Assembly (NCBI RefSeq): GCF_001678945.1
Contig: NZ_CP015124.1
Location: 3,820,001 to 3,884,000 of the forward strand
Reading direction: 5' to 3'
DNA length: 64,000 bases
Origin: Phaeobacter gallaeciensis
GTDB lineage: Bacteria > Pseudomonadota > Alphaproteobacteria > Rhodobacterales > Rhodobacteraceae
Both the position numbers and the translations under genes were made by a program. Shown here in pieces: positions 54,183 through 64,000 of this stretch. The notes beneath the pieces were generated by a model that saw only the letters and a list, made by a program, of their open reading frames with translations, did no database searches and was not told the origin of the DNA. Numbering within the stretch: the first letter of the stretch is position 1; the number at the start of each line of letters is the position of its first letter.

Positions 54183-55016
54183 ATGGGGATTTTGATGACG
54201 GACCTGTTGCGTAAGAATAAAGTTCCGATGCTGTCATTTGCTTCAGTCGATACTGCTGGGCAGGGAACCTTGGTTTTGAAACGGCTCAAGGATGAAGCTC
54301 TGCGACAGGCGATGACAGCGCAGGCCGCCAATGCCAACGTGGCCCAATGGATCGGTCCATCACACTATGAACCGCTGCAGATGCCGCACCGCCGGTCCTC
54401 GCGTCCGGAGCTGTATCGTCGGGCTGGAAAACGGACCCTAGATTTGCTGCTAACCCTATTATCCTTGCCTGTCACTCTGCCTGTCGTGTTGTTCTGCGCG
54501 CTGGCGCTTGCACTTGAAGGCGGCAGCCCGTTTTACACGCAGGAGCGCCTGGGCCGGAATGGCAGACGCTTCCGAATCCTGAAGCTGCGCACCATGGTGC
54601 GGGATGCGGATGCCCGTCTGGCCGAATGCCTTGCGCGGGACCCGGCCTTGCGGCGGGAATGGGACGCAACGCAGAAACTGAAGAACGATCCCCGCATCAC
54701 CCGTGTTGGCCGTATCCTACGAGTCACCTCCATGGATGAGCTTCCGCAGCTGTGGAACGTGGTGAAAGGCGAGATGAGCCTTGTGGGTCCGCGTCCGATG
54801 ATGCCCGAGCAGCTGGCGATTTACGGTGATCCGCGCGATTATTTTGATCTCAAACCCGGTTTGACGGGGCTGTGGCAGGTGTCGGCTCGCAACGAAAGCA
54901 CCTTTGCCTTTCGCGCTGCCGCGGATTCCGAATACTGTCGCGCGCTAAGCCTTGGCTGTGACATCGGTCTGATCTGGCGCACTATCGGCGTGGTTCTGAA
55001 AGGTACAGGATATTAA
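54183..55016 (+). CDS. Undecaprenyl-phosphate sugar transferase (ExoY/WbaP type)
   Basis: Starts polysaccharide repeat units by placing a sugar phosphate on undecaprenyl phosphate. It has 277 residues (or 273 from ATG 54195). After a non-conserved cytoplasmic N-terminus there is one hydrophobic hairpin (about 84-110, RTLDLLLTLLSLPVTLPVVLF), then the catalytic domain with PFYTQERLGRNGRRFRILKLRTM, MDELPQLWNVVKGEMSLVGPRPMMP and KPGLTGLWQVSAR, all diagnostic. It is the first gene of the plus-strand part of the locus. Confidence 0.94.
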   Translation: MGILMTDLLRKNKVPMLSFASVDTAGQGTLVLKRLKDEALRQAMTAQAANANVAQWIGPSHYEPLQMPHRRSSRPELYRRAGKRTLDLLLTLLSLPVTLPVVLFCALALALEGGSPFYTQERLGRNGRRFRILKLRTMVRDADARLAECLARDPALRREWDATQKLKNDPRITRVGRILRVTSMDELPQLWNVVKGEMSLVGPRPMMPEQLAIYGDPRDYFDLKPGLTGLWQVSARNESTFAFRAAADSEYCRALSLGCDIGLIWRTIGVVLKGTGY

Positions 55017-55209: not shown

Positions 55210-56073
55210 ATGACGCAACAGGGTTTTAAGAAATTTCGGCGGCGCGCGCAGGTTCAGCCCGAGGTGCAGGAACAGGTGCGCCCGGAACCGGATGAGGCTG
55301 TGCTGGAGAACGTACCAACCGGCCTGCAGTCCGAACCTGCCGAAATCCTCCCCACCACCTTGCCAAGCCCATGGGAACGGTTGGCCAGAATTTCCTTTGA
55401 TCCTGACCGGGGGGGGCGTGATGGTGCGCCGCTGGCTTCAGCCGTGCGGACCGACCCGGCCGGGCGCGCATTTGATCTGCTGCGCACGCGGCTGTTGCAA
55501 ACCTTGAAGGCCCGCGGCTGGAACCGGGTTGCGGTCACTGCGCCCACCGGGGGCTGTGGAGCCACATTCTGTGCGGTCAATCTGGCGCTTAGCCTGGCGC
55601 GGGTGCCGTCTAGCCGGACCATCTTGATGGATCTCAACTTTCGCAGCCCTGGGGTGGGCCCTGCGATGGGGCTGGCGGCGGCGGGCGACATGGCGTCCTT
55701 CCTGTCCGGCACCCGCCCTGTAGAAGAGGCGTTGGTGCGCCCGCTCGATACGCTCGCGGTCGGGTTGAACGCGACGCCGGACCTGAACGCGGCAGAAATC
55801 CTGCATGACAGCCGTAGCGCCGCGGTACTGGACCACATGGTGGCGGACCTCGACCCGGAAACGGTTGTCTTCGACCTACCACCGATGCTGGAGTACGATG
55901 ATGCGGCGGCCTTCCTGCCGCAGGTCGACGGGGTGCTGGTGATCTCGGACGGGACGCAGACAACGGCGGCGCATCTGGCCGCTTGCGAGAGGATCCTCAA
56001 TGGAAACGCGCCGTTGCTGGGGGTGGTCCTGAACCGAGGGCGCGCGACGGCCGACATCGGGCCTGTCGCATAA
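55210..56073 (+). CDS. CpsD/CapB-like P-loop protein with altered Walker A
   Basis: A 287-residue cytoplasmic protein like the ATPase half of bacterial tyrosine autokinases that pair with Wzz/GumC proteins. The nucleotide loop reads TAPTGGCGATF, with Ala118 where the family has Lys. Walker A' is ILMDLNFRSPG and Walker B is VVFDLPPML. A Tyr-rich C-terminal cluster, present in true BY-kinases, is absent. It precedes the Wzz-like gene by 111 bases. It may act as a non-hydrolysing partner of that protein. Confidence 0.75.
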   Translation: MTQQGFKKFRRRAQVQPEVQEQVRPEPDEAVLENVPTGLQSEPAEILPTTLPSPWERLARISFDPDRGGRDGAPLASAVRTDPAGRAFDLLRTRLLQTLKARGWNRVAVTAPTGGCGATFCAVNLALSLARVPSSRTILMDLNFRSPGVGPAMGLAAAGDMASFLSGTRPVEEALVRPLDTLAVGLNATPDLNAAEILHDSRSAAVLDHMVADLDPETVVFDLPPMLEYDDAAAFLPQVDGVLVISDGTQTTAAHLAACERILNGNAPLLGVVLNRGRATADIGPVA

Positions 56074-56184: not shown

Positions 56185-57429
56185 ATGGGTCCTATCTACT
56201 CCTTGCCGGATCTTCTGGACATGCTGCGCCGCCGCGCGTTGGTGATCCTTGCGATTGCCGTTCTGGGCAGTCTGGTGTCGCTGTTTCTGGCCGCCCGACA
56301 GCAGCATTTCTACGAAAGCTCCGAGGTCATTCAGGTCGCACAGCCGACAATCGCGGATGATCTGGCCAAATCAACGGTCGAAGGATCCACCGCGCGTCGC
56401 ATGCAGCTGATCGAACAGCGGCTGATGGCGCGCAGCTCTGTACTAGAGATTGTCGAGGCGTTCGATCTATATAGCGATATGCCGGATCTTAGACCTTCGG
56501 ACCTGGTTACGCTGGTGCGCGAAAACGTCTCGATTACCGGGGTGGCTGCGGTGCGCGAAGGCTTTGCCGATGATGGTACCATCGCTGTTTTGACCATCAC
56601 CGCCCGCATGCCCAGCCCTGAACAGGCCCAGGCGGTTGCAGCGGAATTTGGGCGCCGGACGATCGAGCTCAGCGTCAGTACCCGTATCGAGCAGGCGCGG
56701 GAAACGCTGAATTTCTTTACCGCAAAGGAAACGGCCGTGGCCAAGGAACTGGCGGCGCTGGACGATGAGATCGCCTCCTACCGGACCGAGCACGACGTTG
56801 CTCAGCCGGGGGCGTTGGAAATCCGCCAAGGGGAAATCGCCACGCTGAACGAGGCGCTGCTGGATATTGACCGGGAGCAGATCCAGATCCGTCGGGCGGC
56901 AGATCAGGCGATGTCCAATGAACGCCCGGCAACAGCGCAGCGCATGCTTGAAGAATTCGAAGAGCAGCTTGCCACCCTGACCGCGCAGCGCGATCTTCTG
57001 ACCCGGCGCAAGGCAGAAATCGAAGCGTCACTAGAAACCTCTCCTGAGGTCGAGCGTCAGCTCGCTGCCTATGACCGCAGGCTGCAACAGCTGCAGAGCG
57101 AACTGGAGACGACCCGTGCTCGCCGCAACGAGGCCGAGATCGGATTCCGTCTGGAAACCGCGCGCCAGTCCGAGCGACTGACAGTGCTGGAACCAGCTGC
57201 CTTGCCCGATTACCCGGTAACAGGGGGACGCAAGCGCACGGCGCTTTTGGGCGCCGCCGCCAGCCTGCTCGCCGCTTTGGTGATTGCCTTCCTTCTGGAG
57301 TTACGAAAGCCGGTGCTGCGCTCGGTCGCGCAGATGAAGCGGGAAACTGGGCTAATGCCGGTTGTCACCATTCCGGAAATGAAGTCCCCCGGCGGAAAAC
57401 GGCGCTCAGGCAAAGGGCGGCGCAGCTGA
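56185..57429 (+). CDS. Wzz/GumC-like polysaccharide chain-length protein
   Basis: A 414-residue inner-membrane protein with an N-terminal helix (about 17-37), a Wzz domain, a long periplasmic coiled coil (about 165-335) and a second helix (about 350-370), then a short Lys/Arg-rich cytoplasmic tail (GGKRRSGKGRRS) without an ATPase domain. The separate CpsD-like gene upstream supplies that part. It probably controls length or export of the polysaccharide. Its hydrophobic N-terminus fits the ATG at 56185, although the ribosome site is weak. Confidence 0.88.
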   Translation: MGPIYSLPDLLDMLRRRALVILAIAVLGSLVSLFLAARQQHFYESSEVIQVAQPTIADDLAKSTVEGSTARRMQLIEQRLMARSSVLEIVEAFDLYSDMPDLRPSDLVTLVRENVSITGVAAVREGFADDGTIAVLTITARMPSPEQAQAVAAEFGRRTIELSVSTRIEQARETLNFFTAKETAVAKELAALDDEIASYRTEHDVAQPGALEIRQGEIATLNEALLDIDREQIQIRRAADQAMSNERPATAQRMLEEFEEQLATLTAQRDLLTRRKAEIEASLETSPEVERQLAAYDRRLQQLQSELETTRARRNEAEIGFRLETARQSERLTVLEPAALPDYPVTGGRKRTALLGAAASLLAALVIAFLLELRKPVLRSVAQMKRETGLMPVVTIPEMKSPGGKRRSGKGRRS

Positions 57430-57522: not shown

Positions 57523-58890
57523 TCAGGGGGCTAGCGCCTTGATCAGGGTCAGCACCGCATCTTGATGCCACCATAGGGCGCTGCCTCCGACCAGAACAAC
57601 CAGAAAGCCAGAGACCAGATCGTGCAGGGGATCCCAGGCGCCGTGTCGGCGGGCCAGCCAGATCAGCACCGGATAGGCGCCGAGCATCGCCAATCCCAGC
57701 GCTGCAATACCGCCGGGCAACCCGAACCAGTAGGTGCCGAGTAAGAAAAGTGCTGTTTGCAGCAGGGCGCGGCTGGCGGTGAAGACAAAGAACGCCCGGC
57801 TGTCTCCGGCGGCCAATGCGGCCTGATCGTAGGTCATGGTGATGACGGCCGGGGCCAGAGCCAGTGAGATCAGCACGATCATCGCACCCGCCTGCTGATA
57901 GCGCGCATCATAGAGCAGATCTGTCAGCCAGGGGCCGATCCAGGCCATGATCAACAGCAGCGACAGGATCACGGCGCTCAGACCTGCGCGCAGCAGGCGG
58001 TGTTTGCGCCGGTTTTCCGGCGGGCCATCGGCGGGCTTGTCGCGGTACACCGGAATCATCAGCCTCTGGTTCACCGCATGGCCCAGCAGCATCGGGAAAC
58101 TCGCTAGAAAGTAGCCGATATTATAGACGCCCAGCACATCCAGCGGCACAAAGCGGCCCAAGATAGCCCGGTCCCCCTGCGAGGTCAGGAACCAGAAGGC
58201 CGTGGAGAGGAATATCCACTTGCCAAAGCGGATCAGCTCCTGCGCGGCGCGGAGTTCCCAGCGAAACCGGTTTGTCTGCCCTGGCAGGCCAAAATGGGTC
58301 AGCGCCAGTTTCGCCGCGGCCTGAATGACCCCGCCCAGAACCAGCGCCAGAACCGATCCGTTTGCCCATGCCAAAAGCACCATAGCGCCGATGCCAAGGG
58401 CCTGCGCCGCGAGATCCAGTGCAGTGAGGCGCCCGACCAGCAAGTGCCGGTGCGCAGTTTCAATGCGGGTCGGGTTGAAGCCTGCGATGGCGAGGCCAAT
58501 GCCGGCGATCGGCAAGTAGAGCAGCAGATCCGGGGCCTGATAGAGCCAGGAAACAGGCCAGGCCAGCAGCAGAGTCATCCCCCAGAGACCGAACCCGCGG
58601 ACAACTTGAATGGTCCAGGCGGTGTTGAGAAAGTCAGGATCATCGCCACGTTCATTCTGCGCAATGGACGGGCCGATCCCGACATCGGAAAACAGCGAAA
58701 GGCCAACGGTCACCACGCTGACCAGTGCCATCAGGCCAAAGGCCTCGGGGAACAGCAGCCGGGCCAGGACCAGATTGGCGCCAAGCCGCAGTGCCTGGCT
58801 GCCGCCATAGCCGATCATCAGCCAGGAGGCCGAGCGCAGCACCCGCGCCAGCAGACCCTGGCCGGAAAACAGCGCGGCTTGCTTAAGCAT
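57523..58890 (-). CDS. Oligosaccharide flippase (Wzx type)
   Basis: A 455-residue membrane protein with about 12-14 helices of the polysaccharide transport family. WLMIGYGGSQALRLGANLVLARLLFPEAFGLMALVSVV is the usual N-terminal stretch. It would move lipid-linked repeat units across the inner membrane. GGAGGTCAG precedes the ATG. It is convergent with the Wzz-like gene and lies 295 bases downstream of the GT2 operon, with a dispersed repeat between. Confidence 0.92.
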   Translation of the reverse strand: MLKQAALFSGQGLLARVLRSASWLMIGYGGSQALRLGANLVLARLLFPEAFGLMALVSVVTVGLSLFSDVGIGPSIAQNERGDDPDFLNTAWTIQVVRGFGLWGMTLLLAWPVSWLYQAPDLLLYLPIAGIGLAIAGFNPTRIETAHRHLLVGRLTALDLAAQALGIGAMVLLAWANGSVLALVLGGVIQAAAKLALTHFGLPGQTNRFRWELRAAQELIRFGKWIFLSTAFWFLTSQGDRAILGRFVPLDVLGVYNIGYFLASFPMLLGHAVNQRLMIPVYRDKPADGPPENRRKHRLLRAGLSAVILSLLLIMAWIGPWLTDLLYDARYQQAGAMIVLISLALAPAVITMTYDQAALAAGDSRAFFVFTASRALLQTALFLLGTYWFGLPGGIAALGLAMLGAYPVLIWLARRHGAWDPLHDLVSGFLVVLVGGSALWWHQDAVLTLIKALAP

Positions 58891-59185: not shown

Positions 59186-60016
59186 CTAGCGACCTCTCGC
59201 CCAGCGTGTCTTGGTCCTGAACAGTGGCGTTTTTACCGTCAGGCTGACCAGCGCATAGGCGGCAAACCCCAGCGGGGCGCGCAGGAAGAGACGCATCAGA
59301 CCCGATGCACCGAGGCTGCGTTTGTCATCGTTTTCCAACAAATGCGGAAATCGCTCGGCGATTTCCTCGACGCCGACATTCTGCCGCCTGCGCACCCGCA
59401 CAAGATTGGCAAAGCCTTCGACCATCGGCCAGTCATAGCGGGCGGGCACACGAAAGCGCTCGGCAGGGGCAAAGGACAACCGTGCGAATGTGTCGTCCGA
59501 GATGATGTCGGGCCAAGCCTGCCAGCGCTCACGCCCGGTGCGGGTCATGGCGAAAAGGCCAAAACCGGGGGCGCCATCCGTGACAAAGGGCAGTCTGGAC
59601 CAGAACTGCCCATAGGCGCGGGTCAGGGCAGAGCGGGCCGGGTCGACACGGGGGCTGCCGCTGGCATAAAGTGGCTGCTCCGGCGTCAGAACTCCGGCAA
59701 GTTGCGCTAAAAGGGGCGGGGTGACCGTGACATCGGCATCCAGATAAACCAGCACCGCGCCGCGAGCCCGGGCATCCCCGGCATTGAGCGCGGCCAGCTT
59801 GCCCCCCTGCGGGAGGTCGATCACCTTGCGGCTCCAGCCTTGGGGAAGGGTGACAGAACGGGCAATTTCAGCGGTGTCATCGGTGCAGCCATTGGCCAGC
59901 ACCAGAACCTCGACCGGGCCGGGCAGCGGATCAGAGGCAAAAAGTGCCTCAAGACAGGGGCGGATATACGCCGCCTCGTTATGGGCCGGGATCAGCACGG
60001 ATATCATCGGTGTCAT
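59186..60016 (-). CDS. Glycosyltransferase family 2
   Basis: A 276-residue GT-A enzyme from ATG 60016 (MTPMISVLIPAHNEAAYIRPCL), with GGAGG upstream. The donor/metal motif is VLVYLDADVTV (about 87-97). A C-terminal hydrophobic stretch suggests membrane association. It overlaps the stop of the SGNH-glycosidase-like gene by 4 bases (ATGA), so synthesis and presumed modification are coupled. The sugar is not known. Confidence 0.9.
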   Translation of the reverse strand: MTPMISVLIPAHNEAAYIRPCLEALFASDPLPGPVEVLVLANGCTDDTAEIARSVTLPQGWSRKVIDLPQGGKLAALNAGDARARGAVLVYLDADVTVTPPLLAQLAGVLTPEQPLYASGSPRVDPARSALTRAYGQFWSRLPFVTDGAPGFGLFAMTRTGRERWQAWPDIISDDTFARLSFAPAERFRVPARYDWPMVEGFANLVRVRRRQNVGVEEIAERFPHLLENDDKRSLGASGLMRLFLRAPLGFAAYALVSLTVKTPLFRTKTRWARGR

Positions 60017-62532
60017 TTCACCGCCTCCAGCACCCGCCAGCGCGGGTTGTCGTCGCTGAGCGTGCGCCGCGCACCCCAGCTGCCCCATTTGCCGGGCACA
60101 GCCACATCGGCATAGGCCGCGAACAGGGTGCCGCCATGCTCGGCCCAGCCGGTCAGCATCTTCGTATAAAGCGCGGCCATTTCTTCGGTGTAATTGAAGT
60201 GGGTGAAAAAGCCGGTTAGCTCTGCGTCCTCGACCATCTGGCCGACACCCACCACATGGCTGCCGCCCTCGTACATGATTAGGTCCAGCCCGTATTCGTC
60301 GGCGACAGATTTGTGATAGGGCAGCTCCTTGTCCAGAAAACCGGCCATAGCGCCATTGCCGTCCTCGCTGAGGAGGCCATCCTCGATTTCCAGCATAGCC
60401 TGCGCCGTTGCCACATCGTACTGATGCGCCTCTATATAGGCCGCAGCCTCGGCGCCCTGCAGCCCCAGATCGGCGGCGGCAGAGCGGGCCCGGTCGCGGC
60501 TGTCGGCGATCCAGGCGCGCACCATGGGGGCGTTGTCGCGCAGGCCAAGCGTGCCGCCGAAATAGCCGGTAATCGCATAGGCATCGAAATAGCGCGCCGG
60601 GGGCAGGCGGTCTGGCGCCCCGGCCACCCAGAGCGGTGCGTTCAGCACCTGTTCCTCAAGGCCCGGCCAGCCGGTCTGAGTTGAAATCACCCGCACCAGT
60701 CGCTGGTCGGCGTCTGCGCCAAAGACATCGGTCCAGATCCGCGACATTTCCGCAGCGCGTCCGCCGTAGAACTGCATCCAGAGGTCACTGCCGCCCCAGA
60801 GGCTGCGGGCCTGCTCGTCTGCCCATTGGGCCTGTGCAAATTGCCAGTTCCAGACCTCGTTGGAGTATTCCACATAGGCACGTAGATCCTCGTCCAGGCC
60901 GCCATCCACCAGCTGGGCGAAATTGCGCAGATAGCTGTCGTCGGCCATATGGGGCATGTTGAACCAGGGATCGGCGCCCAGCGTATTGGCCAGCGCCAGC
61001 AGGATCTCGGCCGGGACACCCTTGCGCGCCCAGGTGTAATCGGAGACCTCCGGGCGGTCTTCCCAGCCAACCTGTTCGGAATCGTTGGTCTGCATCCAGT
61101 CCATGAACCGTAGCACGTCAAACCCATCCAGCATGTCGAGCCAGAGTGGGTTGAACAGGGCGCCATCTGCATAGGCCTTCAGCTGATCGGCGCGCACCAC
61201 GGTGATGTTGCGTACATAATCTGTCCCGCGCCCGGTGCGCTGAATGCGGATTTCGACCGGACCGGGGCCGGGGGTATAGTCAAATGTGACCTGGCCCTTG
61301 CCATAGCGGACGTTTTCGGCGCGGCCTGAGACCTCGACAATGCCGGAGCCGTCAAAGCGCAGCACATAACGCCCGGCAAGCGAGTGCGCCGAGGCGGGCA
61401 GATCGGTCAGAATGACGGTGCCGATGGAGCCAAGCTCGGGCGGCATGGCGGTGGGCCAGCCTTGCGGATCCAGATAGCCTGCAGCGGCAAGATCGTCATG
61501 GCCGACACCGCCCCAGCGCCCAGGCAGGTGGCCGATCCACGGGCGGGCGGTTTTGAAATGGTCAAGGAAAGGCGCCTGCGGGCTCCAGTCGGCGACCTCC
61601 ATCAGGTTCATGGCGATCGGCTGGCGCGGCGGTCCCTTTGCGGTGATTTCCGGCGCGGGGGCAGAGGCCGCAACCTCGGCGTTGAGGCGTGGCGCAGCGG
61701 GGTCGGAGGGCAGCGGCGGCGGGTCGGGCGGCAGGGCGGCGGTGCGTACCTCCTCGCCTTGGGCCGCGGCCCAGGCGATCTCCTGCAGCCGCCGGGCCAG
61801 TGCGGGCTCAGGCGCCGGATAGGCTTTGCCCCAACGATCCTGTAGCCGGTGCGGCAGACCCACCGGGCTGTGTCCGGTCAGAACCGCATATTGTAGCGCG
61901 CTGATATAGTAGAACCCGGTGGAATTTGGGTGGATGTCATCGGAAAAGACTTCAGAAATCTCGGTGAGGCCCGGCACCGTTCCGGCCCGGATGGCATCGT
62001 CCAGACGCGCCATGGCCTGCCCGGCGGGAAGTAGGCGCATATCACCACCGACGCTGTCGTTGACTTCATCCACCACAGCCTGCCAGCGGGGCAGGTCCTG
62101 CTCCAGCCGGTCACGCCAGGCGATATCGGCGCCTTCGTCAAACGGCACCTCGGTGCCGGTTCCGCTGCTGAGGCTGTGCCAGGTTTCCTGCAGATAGACA
62201 GCGGCATCGGGATTGGCATCCTTGGCCAGCTGGTAGTAGCGGGTGACGGTCTCTTCGGTATTGCTCCACTTCAGGTGATTGGCTAGCGGGATCGCCTCGG
62301 TCAGGATGACAGCATCGACCGGGGTCTGGAGACGCGCGCGGGCGTTCACCCCTTCGGCGCTGTCGCCGTGCTCCCAGTTGTAGCTGAGCGGCGCGCCATT
62401 GATGATCTGCGCTTCGACGGTGGCACTGCTACTGGACTGGCGCAACAGCTGTTCCAGCATGGCGGGATTGTCCTGGCCAAACAGCGAATGGCCCACCATC
62501 AGGACCGAGGTGATCAGTGTTTCAAGGTTCAT
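60013..62532 (-). CDS. SGNH-like and glycosidase-like fusion protein
   Basis: An 839-residue protein of two parts. Residues about 1-230 resemble an SGNH/GDSL-type domain: VGHSLFGQ with Ser16, and the DxxH block SDDIHPNSTG. A Pro/Ala-rich linker (about 265-305) follows. Residues about 330-839 look like a clan-A glycosidase: YSNEVWNW with Glu559 as acid/base candidate and MYEGGSH with Glu755 as nucleophile candidate, ending in WGARRTL. I do not recognise a named family for this combination. No signal peptide is seen. It overlaps both neighbours by 4 bases. Confidence 0.65.
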   Translation of the reverse strand: MNLETLITSVLMVGHSLFGQDNPAMLEQLLRQSSSSATVEAQIINGAPLSYNWEHGDSAEGVNARARLQTPVDAVILTEAIPLANHLKWSNTEETVTRYYQLAKDANPDAAVYLQETWHSLSSGTGTEVPFDEGADIAWRDRLEQDLPRWQAVVDEVNDSVGGDMRLLPAGQAMARLDDAIRAGTVPGLTEISEVFSDDIHPNSTGFYYISALQYAVLTGHSPVGLPHRLQDRWGKAYPAPEPALARRLQEIAWAAAQGEEVRTAALPPDPPPLPSDPAAPRLNAEVAASAPAPEITAKGPPRQPIAMNLMEVADWSPQAPFLDHFKTARPWIGHLPGRWGGVGHDDLAAAGYLDPQGWPTAMPPELGSIGTVILTDLPASAHSLAGRYVLRFDGSGIVEVSGRAENVRYGKGQVTFDYTPGPGPVEIRIQRTGRGTDYVRNITVVRADQLKAYADGALFNPLWLDMLDGFDVLRFMDWMQTNDSEQVGWEDRPEVSDYTWARKGVPAEILLALANTLGADPWFNMPHMADDSYLRNFAQLVDGGLDEDLRAYVEYSNEVWNWQFAQAQWADEQARSLWGGSDLWMQFYGGRAAEMSRIWTDVFGADADQRLVRVISTQTGWPGLEEQVLNAPLWVAGAPDRLPPARYFDAYAITGYFGGTLGLRDNAPMVRAWIADSRDRARSAAADLGLQGAEAAAYIEAHQYDVATAQAMLEIEDGLLSEDGNGAMAGFLDKELPYHKSVADEYGLDLIMYEGGSHVVGVGQMVEDAELTGFFTHFNYTEEMAALYTKMLTGWAEHGGTLFAAYADVAVPGKWGSWGARRTLSDDNPRWRVLEAVK

Positions 62533-63461
62533 CCGTTCTGGCCTGCGTCAGAGAGACCCGTGCGGGGGATCCCTGTCACCACCTGCCAGACGATTTGCTG
62601 CACCGTCTCGGCAGCGGCCGGTGACAGCGCCGTCGCTGCCTCTCCATCCGGACGCGACAGCTGGTGCGGCAGGCCAACAGGGGAGCGGTGATAGAGCACG
62701 GCATAGTGGGCGAGGGCGACAATGTATGTGCCCAAGTCGTTGATATGGATAGTGTCCTGTGCGCCTTCCGGTGTCTTGGCGAAAAGATCCGAAACATCCC
62801 TCAGCCCGTCGATCTGGCCTGCATCAATGGCCCGTGCGACAGCGGCCATGACCTGTCCGGCAGGGATCAGGTAGACCGGGCGTTTGGGATTGCGACGCGT
62901 GTCTGATCCGAGCACCTTGCCCAGCCAGAGCCGGTCCAGATCGCTTGCGATGCGCGCCTGCCAGCCGTCCGGGTCATCAAGGTGATGCCAGGTCTCATAA
63001 AGATAGAGCCGCGTGTCAGGCGAAGCATCACGGGCCAGCGCGGCCCAGCGGCGCATGTATTTGGCGGAGCCGAAATACTTCACCGCGTCGCGCAGCTCGA
63101 CCATTTCTGTCAGCACCACCGCATCATAATCGCCGGAACCGATGGCCTCTTTGGCGTCGCGCCAGATGGGGGCCTGATTCACCAGATCGAAATGAAGGAT
63201 CGTCTCCTCCGGCTCCCAGTGCTGCTTTAGCGATGTGCCCGACCCGAGCTGGCTGTTCCAGCTGTGCCCCTTGGGGGCAAGTTGCGCCAGCATATGAGGC
63301 ATCACAGGGCCGACCAGAGAGTGGCCAAGGTGATAGACCTTCATTGGCTGCTCTGGTGGGGGCAGCACCGGCACCGGAAACGGCGCGGCCTGCAGGGGCA
63401 GGCTGGCCCAAATCCCATGCAGGCAGGTCGTCAGCGCCAGAAGCAGAGATCGTTTTCCCAT
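62529..63461 (-). CDS. Exported SGNH-like protein
   Basis: A 310-residue protein with a signal peptide (MGKRSLLLALTTCLHGIWASLPLQA). The mature part is similar to the N-terminal half of the next protein: HLGHSLVG (candidate Ser48), VLTEMVELRDA, LYLYETWHHL, PVYLIPAGQVMAAVARAID and DTIHINDLGTYIVALAHYAVLYHRSPVGLPH, including the DxxH block. The two genes therefore look like a duplication with fusion. It may deacetylate or otherwise edit the polysaccharide outside the cytoplasm. GGAGG for its start lies within the end of the upstream gene. Confidence 0.7.
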   Translation of the reverse strand: MGKRSLLLALTTCLHGIWASLPLQAAPFPVPVLPPPEQPMKVYHLGHSLVGPVMPHMLAQLAPKGHSWNSQLGSGTSLKQHWEPEETILHFDLVNQAPIWRDAKEAIGSGDYDAVVLTEMVELRDAVKYFGSAKYMRRWAALARDASPDTRLYLYETWHHLDDPDGWQARIASDLDRLWLGKVLGSDTRRNPKRPVYLIPAGQVMAAVARAIDAGQIDGLRDVSDLFAKTPEGAQDTIHINDLGTYIVALAHYAVLYHRSPVGLPHQLSRPDGEAATALSPAAAETVQQIVWQVVTGIPRTGLSDAGQNG

Positions 63462-63464
63462 TGC

Positions 63465-64000
63465 TCACGCCTCCAGGCTTGCTGCGGTGAAAATGATACC
63501 TTCCCCGATGACATAGGCGCCGTTGATCCGGGCGCCAGTGCGAAACGGCGGGCGGTCGGCAGTGAAGGCGGCTACGAAACGCCCGCGCCGGACCGTTTCA
63601 CTCACGTCTTCTGGTTCGATCTCCAACTCCATGCCGTCAAAGCCGAAAAACTGTTCACTGACAGTATACTGGCACTTATAGGCGGCTTCCTTGGCGGAGA
63701 AGATCAGCTTGGCCATCTGGCCGGGGTTGTCCTGCGAGGTCAGCCAATCCTGTTCGCGGGCAGAGCAGATCGCCGGGCGCAGGTCATCTTTCAGGGGCGT
63801 GTCTTCCTCGACGTCAATGCCAATGGCGCGCCGGGTCAGTGTCGAGGCCACGGCGGCAAGGGCGCAGCTGCGGGTGTGGGTGATCGATCCGGTCAGCCCT
63901 GCGGGCCAGATGGGCGCGCGGGATTTGGCAATCACGATGGGGCAGGGCGCCCGGCCAAGATCCTGCATCGCCCGGTGCGCCGCCGCCCGCCCGGCGGCAA
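63465..64000 (-). CDS. 4'-phosphopantetheinyl transferase (EntD/Sfp type), 5' end outside window
   Basis: Transfers phosphopantetheine from CoA to a carrier protein serine. The frame stays open past the ATG at 63968 to the right edge, encoding AAGRAAAHRAMQDLGR, which fits the family, so the start lies beyond the window. Visible motifs are GSITHT, IGIDVEED (metal-binding) and IFSAKEAAYKCQY. Its stop is 3 bases before the SGNH-like gene, so it heads or belongs to the polysaccharide-editing operon. No carrier protein gene is seen here. Confidence 0.9.
   Translation of the reverse strand, partial: AAGRAAAHRAMQDLGRAPCPIVIAKSRAPIWPAGLTGSITHTRSCALAAVASTLTRRAIGIDVEEDTPLKDDLRPAICSAREQDWLTSQDNPGQMAKLIFSAKEAAYKCQYTVSEQFFGFDGMELEIEPEDVSETVRRGRFVAAFTADRPPFRTGARINGAYVIGEGIIFTAASLEA

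Follow-up and report, generated by a model that had tools for sequence, protein, structure and literature searches.

The window analysed here is a stretch of 64,000 nucleotides from Phaeobacter gallaeciensis (bases 3820001-3884000 of a genome that forms a single contig of 4.06 Mb), and our subject is the operon at its end, which encodes a phosphopantetheinyl transferase (PPTase), two SGNH-like domains, a domain resembling glycoside hydrolases (GH) and a family 2 glycosyltransferase (GT2). The original prediction, made from the window alone, described four coupled open reading frames with a 3-base gap and two ATGA overlaps. Coordinates and junction bases confirmed this on the minus strand: the gap lies between PPTase and SGNH1, and the overlaps are at SGNH1/SGNH2-GH and SGNH2-GH/GT2b. 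The operon is cut by the window edge, which falls inside the PPTase gene, and the NRPS/PPTase and GT2a/NRPS junctions beyond it are ATGA overlaps as well. With the type I polyketide synthase (PKS) and the non-ribosomal peptide synthetase (NRPS) included, the order is PKS - GT2a - NRPS - PPTase - SGNH1 - SGNH2-GH - GT2b, followed by Wzx on the same strand; the four window genes are the tail of a conserved Rhodobacteraceae operon. The features are as follows, with window numbering extrapolated for those outside the window.

59186..60016, minus strand: GT2b, family 2 glycosyltransferase, 276 aa (PF00535, E 1.9e-21)
60013..62532, minus strand: SGNH2-GH fusion, 839 aa; SGNH/DUF4886-like at about 1-260, linker 261-297, barrel at about 305-839 with a beta-sandwich insert
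62529..63461, minus strand: SGNH1, SGNH/DUF4886-like, 310 aa; N-terminal signal or anchor; Ser48, Asp236, His239
63465..64000, running on to 64184 past the window, minus strand: PPTase, Sfp-like, 239 aa (in-window part: PF17837, E 9.6e-16; PF01648, E 1.4e-13)
64181-68770, minus strand, outside the window: NRPS, 1529 aa
68767-69804, minus strand, outside the window, between NRPS and PKS: GT2a, family 2 glycosyltransferase
69805-76338, minus strand, outside the window: type I PKS, 2177 aa
76683-78146, minus strand, outside the window: Wzy_C-like protein (Wzy_C, E 2.3e-4, below cut-off)
beyond the Wzy_C-like gene, divergent: WecG-family gene
57523..58890, minus strand: Wzx-type flippase, 455 aa (PF13440, E 1.4e-42)
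56185..57429, plus strand: Wzz-type chain-length protein, 414 aa, divergent (PF02706, E 2.1e-5, 25.2 bits against a cut-off of 25.5; TIGR03007, E 1.7e-25, below cut-off)
55210..56073, plus strand: BY-kinase-like protein, 287 aa as called (TIGR03018, E 1.1e-20, below cut-off)
54486..55016, plus strand: sugar transferase, Bac_transf (PF02397, E 3.9e-53), which would initiate the repeat unit; the real start is possibly upstream

The polysaccharide setting that had been predicted was borne out by a sugar transferase, Wzx, Wzz, a BY-kinase-like protein and a Wzy-like gene, which together make up a Wzx/Wzy locus, with the Wzz, kinase and Wzy_C models scoring below their cut-offs; the predicted GT2 enzyme was likewise recovered by PF00535. 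A PKS/NRPS assembly line thus lies inside a polysaccharide locus, beside a GH-like family, and its product may therefore be a decorated polysaccharide. Two Wza-type Poly_export genes are found elsewhere in the genome, at G000:C1:921431 and 1252127.

The domains of the PKS, as assigned by Pfam, are in order KS, AT, KR, DH, ACP and TE, with active-site motifs, including the GxSxG of the TE, recognised by eye and no ER found in the Pfam scan. Such an enzyme, with KR and DH and an ER not found, would be expected to make unsaturated chains, and GT2a sits between the PKS and NRPS genes. Both points would suit a short glycolipid or capped oligosaccharide, a Wzx-flipped glycan that has the polyketide as its lipid or cap instead of a side group on a polymer. 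We regard this as improbable, given that the Wzy_C-like gene (below cut-off), Wzz and the kinase are part of the locus.

The NRPS comprises N- and C-terminal formyltransferase parts, an AMP-binding domain into which a monooxygenase is inserted, and a carrier domain. Among PDB entries it comes closest to LgrA, the formylating linear gramicidin synthase; the insert, which matches PuwE (6ket), belongs to the MupA/Atu3671 family of luciferase-like monooxygenases (MOX; TIGR04020, 473.6 bits, cut-off 244.45). Mapped by motif, the specificity signature reads DILQLGMIWK. Among 68 NRPS sequences, which are not all distinct (several L036-L075 and L085-L164 loci stem from the same contig, as L036 and L087 do), seven of the ten signature positions were invariant, the others being L, M or Y at 299, I or V at 330 and K, R or G at 517; the formyltransferase Asn and His were kept in 67/68, with one gap, and the carrier Ser in 68/68. 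The glycine signature and the inserted monooxygenase together identify a glycine-MOX module, of the kind called MtaG-type. In the accessible text of PMC12283262, four glycine adenylation domains with a MOX insertion all carry exactly DILQLGMIWK, and MOX leads to terminal amides. The present NRPS shares signature and insert with those domains and with PuwE, and differs from them in its formyltransferase-like N-terminus and in having no recognisable condensation domain (no Pfam match at E 10 and no HHxxxDG motif). The 255 residues between the formyltransferase and adenylation domains gave no Pfam match, and a PDB search returned just a linker-like tail at E 0.018.

The PPTase had been thought out of place, since such enzymes normally serve carrier proteins and not polysaccharide genes. 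Carrier enzymes occupy the same operon, and the notion of an odd partner was rejected: the PPTase overlaps the NRPS by 4 bases, with the PKS two genes on. Because NRPS and PKS adjoin it, the PPTase has carrier substrates at hand. The whole genome contains two ACPS-family genes, the operon PPTase and a 159-codon frame that we take to be AcpS.

An orphan PKS/NRPS cluster of roseobacters was reportedly described by Martens et al. (2007), as cited by later papers. In the portions of PMC5014874 and PMC4337385 available to us, this cluster holds a PKS, a glycosyltransferase, an NRPS and a PPTase in one block, without a known product, and the latter counts it in 28 of 57 roseobacter genomes; gene pairs of the cluster also appear in the accessible parts of PMC3910554 and PMC4062626. 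The same four genes are adjacent here. The original prediction did not recognise this combination of domains, which remains apt for the SGNH/GH part and not for the PKS-GT-NRPS-PPTase block, already published as the orphan cluster (PMC5014874, PMC4337385, as far as their accessible text goes). The portions of the published accounts at our disposal mention no polysaccharide locus, SGNH or GH protein. A literature search on PKS/NRPS together with polysaccharide likewise found no statement tying the cluster to a polysaccharide or naming the GH family, in sources that were partly accessible and largely exclude subscription literature, so that this is no proof of absence. What is new here is the place of the cluster in a Wzx/Wzz/kinase/sugar-transferase locus and the candidate glycosidase family.

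Conservation was followed in 80 named loci of the GH family (L085-L164), to which the pair, content and adjacency counts refer. These are the best 80 of at least 586 confirmed matches and therefore lean to close relatives; flanks extend to at most 10 kb, many contigs are short, and genes were called by script, with start codons that are guesses. The NRPS was in view in 45 loci, the PKS only in 4 and neither in 31. The 45 NRPS-bearing loci contain the PKS in 44, PPTase in 43, SGNH1 in 45, GH in 45, Wzx in 40, Wzz in 38, the kinase in 38 and the sugar transferase in 36; at least one of the last four genes is present in 42/45 and all four in 34/45. GT2b is missing from 8/45, possibly a calling error, and follows the GH gene directly in 62 called pairs among the 80 loci. 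A GT4-like gene (UNK400, named by eye) occurs in 39/45 and is missing from the P. gallaeciensis locus, the best match in this genome being 42% identical and at another site. Four-base overlaps were found at GT2a/NRPS in 35/44 called pairs, NRPS/PPTase in 28/43, SGNH1/GH in 37/63 and GH/GT2b in 34/62. The four window genes had been expected to stay together across relatives. All four are adjacent in 36/80 loci and PPTase-SGNH1-GH in 44/80; the remaining loci keep subsets, and the expectation thus stood in part.

Three classes of neighbourhood were seen. The first, as here, reads PKS-GT2a-NRPS-PPTase-SGNH1-(SGNH2-)GH-GT2b, then Wzx, Wzz, kinase and sugar transferase. The second is rearranged, with a long SGNH-GH protein bearing a signal peptide and an RTX-like tail, then GT2b, Wzx, PKS, GT2a and NRPS; in L077-L079 the order is GH, GT2b, Wzx, PKS, GT2a, NRPS, with the PPTase called in L077 and L079 and Wzz in L077 and L078. 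The third shows SGNH1-SGNH2-GH-GT2b, with PKS/NRPS not in view (e.g. L114). Five class 3 genomes belong to the 149-genome sample described below (G026, G028, G034, G121, G135), and all five have the NRPS away from the GH, elsewhere on the contig or on a different one. In Parasedimentitalea marina, one plasmid unites kinase, sugar transferase, WecB, PKS, GT2, NRPS, a GH match and GT2; its gene table, which is incomplete, lists neither PPTase nor Wzx.

Within the family, the fusion protein was matched at E 1e-5 in 114 of 295 genomes, some via the SGNH part only. Co-occurrence was determined in 149 of those genomes, from 149 genera, with thresholds of E 1e-100 for the NRPS, E 1e-20 for the GH domain and E 1e-100 for the PKS (less specific), and gave the NRPS in 57, the GH domain in 55 and the PKS in 70. 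NRPS and GH were both present in 52 genomes and both absent in 89, with 5 having the NRPS only and 3 the GH only (Fisher p 1.9e-30, a value that overstates the association because genera are not independent). In the 52 genomes the two genes start within 12 kb of each other in 20, within 30 kb in 18, and farther apart or on another contig in 14, some of which are fragmented assemblies. Six of these 14 were inspected singly, and polysaccharide genes flank the PKS-NRPS block in all six: at least two of Wzy-like, WecG, Wzz, kinase, sugar transferase and Wzx in G034, G121, G135, G026 and G037, and in G047 Wzz alone in view beside the NRPS. Across 240 genomes of the class, the NRPS (E 1e-200) was found in 3, all Rhodobacteraceae, and the GH (E 1e-20) in 4, three of them Rhodobacteraceae.

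These data bear on the alternative that the product of the PKS/NRPS is a small free molecule, perhaps glycosylated, and that the cluster merely adjoins polysaccharide genes, the SGNH and GH proteins serving the polysaccharide only. The literature classes the cluster as secondary metabolism (PMC5014874 and PMC4337385, in their accessible parts), the terminal TE of the PKS could release a product, and GH-family loci without PKS/NRPS exist. We nevertheless think it unlikely, since the block keeps company with Wzx, Wzz, kinase or sugar-transferase genes in those 42 of 45 loci, also where it is rearranged or away from the GH, and tracks the GH family across genera. In addition, Wzx is the sole transporter found among the 14 genes called at 54486-80148, all of which were profile-scanned.

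For the GH-like domain, the pair of NE and EGG motifs 196 residues apart that had been likened to clan-A glycosidases was upheld by conservation and by the predicted barrel. In clan GH-A the acid/base Glu follows strand 4 and is preceded by Asn, and the nucleophile Glu lies in strand 7. The AF2 model of the fusion (pLDDT 91.6, pTM 0.68, residues 261-297 of low confidence) contains a (beta/alpha)8 barrel by our own assignment, with strands that start at 333, 473, 521, 552, 612, 651, 750 and 803 by DSSP, and the beta-sandwich insert falls at about 369-447. Asn558-Glu559, in S-N-E-V-W-N, comes after strand 4 (552-556), and Glu755, in Y-E-G-G, lies in strand 7 (750-758), so that in the model both are placed like the acid/base and nucleophile of the clan. 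Glu559 was kept in 23/23 and Glu755 in 22/23 homologues from a protein search (alignment A1), and both in 60/60 rows of alignment A3, where the Glu559 count is partly preselected because rows were retrieved by the patterns E[YF]SNEVWN or RFMDWMxT. A chance motif pair was rejected on the strength of this conservation and strand placement. Foldseek with the C-terminal part returned GH barrels (GH10, GH1 and GH5 by title, and two that we take to be GH44 and GH53), weakly, with E 4e-4 to 4e-3, target TM 0.27-0.50 and rmsd 6-23. No curated GH family was recovered (no Pfam match at E 10, no NCBIfam match at E 1 and no meaningful PDB sequence match), and Pfam on the 60 A3 members gave six with RTX repeats, one GDSL_2 and no other family, GH families included. 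We regard the domain as a candidate new family of glycosidases whose active site is predicted and which has no name in Pfam or NCBIfam. In the GH-only homologue L063:5411-7027, beside a PPTase, the strand-7 Glu is lost (YTAG for YEGG), and this copy is likely non-catalytic, judging from its residues.

Both proposed SGNH-type domains held up, their models being nearest to the DUF4886 structure 4i8i: SGNH1 (AF2 model, pLDDT 92.1) at E 4.1e-6, its sole Foldseek match at E <=0.001, and SGNH2 at E 5.0e-8. The Ser ... Asp-x-x-His arrangement is present in SGNH1, with Ser48, Asp236 and His239 kept in 43/43 rows of alignment A4. The canonical blocks of SGNH enzymes are GDSL and GxND; here Ser48 and Ser16 (of SGNH2) sit within GHSL, and TEM or TEA stands at the expected GxND site. 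SGNH1 and the fusion are both without a Pfam or NCBIfam family; the Pfam models GDSL_2 (E 0.041) and DUF4886 (E 0.13) stay below their cut-offs. Searching PDB sequences with the two proteins, and with profiles built from them, gave no believable match. Both domains resemble, in SGNH-type fold, SsfX3 (3skv), a salicylyl-acyltransferase of a tetracycline pathway, with Foldseek probabilities of 0.99 and 1.00 and weak E values of 1.0e-2 and 3.4e-3. At Ser16, 46 A3 rows have a letter, which is Ser in 42; the other four are L137 and L144, GH-only proteins aligned via their leaders, and L139 and L145, fusions without the Ser. These last two are Paracoccus proteins (L139:10792-13314, L145:10792-13317), in which the second SGNH domain may, from this residue, be non-catalytic.

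An exported SGNH-like protein had also been foreseen, and this is true of SGNH1, which carries a signal or anchor, and not of the SGNH2-GH fusion, which has no signal peptide. The fusion begins 13 residues ahead of GHSL (window 62480-62532), identically in 44 of 54 fused rows from the named loci, and the residues before the GHSL-type motif in fused rows have hardly any positive charge. A hidden leader was ruled out, the open frame being just 844 codons. Signal peptides were seen by eye in about 20 of 27 GH-only rows. PelA and PgaB are bifunctional deacylase-glycosidase proteins of exopolysaccharide operons and belong to other families; the present protein resembles them in the joining of an esterase-type and a glycosidase-type domain and differs in its missing signal peptide.

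Since the operon encodes SGNH proteins together with an adenylation domain and a carrier, a Dlt-like system could be imagined, in which SGNH/GH/GT editing is coupled to carrier-dependent acylation via a membrane acyltransferase. Dlt-type transfer needs an MBOAT, and none was found in the genome at E 0.001, a search that matches in 3 of 14 control genomes; MBOAT transfer was accordingly rejected, and we hold a Dlt-like scheme to be very improbable.

Taken together, we favor, with a probability of about 0.5, a single pathway for a Wzy-type polysaccharide that bears a group made by the assembly line and is edited by SGNH and GH enzymes. From gene order, conservation, domain content, motifs and co-occurrence, we infer its product, attachment, enzyme activities and compartments as follows. 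The PPTase would arm the carrier domains of PKS and NRPS, the PKS would make an acyl chain, and the NRPS would activate glycine for hydroxylation by the inserted monooxygenase, which in related assembly lines leads to a terminal amide. The resulting group may be attached to a sugar or to the repeat unit, GT2a being encoded between PKS and NRPS. The sugar transferase and glycosyltransferases would assemble the repeat unit on a lipid carrier, Wzx would flip it, and the Wzy-like protein would polymerise it, with Wzz and the kinase in control. SGNH1, anchored N-terminally, may transfer or take off acyl groups outside the membrane, and the GH-A-like domain may cut or trim its predicted substrate, the polymer. 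More tentatively, the orphan roseobacter cluster would make no free metabolite: a polyketide- and glycine-derived group would go onto Wzy-type exopolysaccharide repeats, with a new clan-A glycosidase family and paired SGNH enzymes editing the polymer. The synthesis-and-editing module, perhaps with carrier-dependent acylation, of the original prediction agrees with this in its SGNH domains, GH-A-like barrel, GT2, polysaccharide genes and carrier enzymes; its view of the PPTase as an odd partner did not survive, the fusion is leaderless and the linkage of the four genes is partial.

Several observations weigh against the decorated-polysaccharide pathway. No attachment enzyme was identified, and GT2a could glycosylate a free polyketide. 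As the condensation domain was not found in the NRPS, glycine is possibly not joined to the polyketide. A periplasmic GH is difficult to reconcile with a fusion that lacks a leader, and no Wza (Poly_export) gene is present at the locus. The NRPS occurs without the GH in those 5 of 149 genomes (G022, G023, G118, G144, G147; completeness 73-85% in three), and the GH without the NRPS in 3 (G077, G104, G105; GH identity 38-42%). Neither PKS nor NRPS is in view in the 31 of 80 GH-family loci mentioned above, and in L114:9854-14127 the SGNH1/SGNH2-GH/GT2b trio stands apart from PKS/NRPS amid genes that by eye look like housekeeping genes. The rearranged class lacks SGNH1 (6/6 loci checked). The GH is also plasmid-borne in other polysaccharide surroundings with no PKS/NRPS listed, as on Sulfitobacter OXR-159 plasmid NZ_CP139709, where it accompanies glycosyltransferases and no PKS/NRPS is listed within 15 kb.

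Were the pathway correct, modular assembly lines would decorate exopolysaccharides, which would matter for attachment as well as for marine gels and emulsifying polymers, and the polysaccharide placement points the search for the product to a surface or released glycan and not to an organic extract. The closest polysaccharide system that we compared is the promonan locus of Sphingomonas LM7 (PMC11340318, accessible text), which shares the initiating transferase, GT2s, Wzx, Wzy, Wzz, kinase and WecG and contains two GH genes and an acyltransferase. It is unlike the present locus in that its GH genes are of GH10 and GH16 and Wza lies in the locus, and that text does not mention PKS, NRPS or PPTase.

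The GH relative on the OXR-159 plasmid (L187:15001-16584) lies near glycosyltransferases and a mannose-1-phosphate guanylyltransferase, and the available part of PMC12016528 describes a plasmid-borne sphingan-like polysaccharide cluster in this strain; equating that cluster with the present locus is unsupported, given the PKS/NRPS listing around the GH match. In Paracoccus marcusii, a plasmid gene of 6.9 kb annotated as a family 16 glycosylhydrolase (L172:4465-11373) includes the GH-like domain; polysaccharide genes and a relaxase lie nearby. Finally, L087 (JAHVJD010000005.1) and G238:C5, both of 321862 bases and titled Nocardioides marinus DP1N28-1, contain a Leisingera-like roseobacter locus and are classified with the Rhodobacteraceae genomes, and the title is probably wrong.

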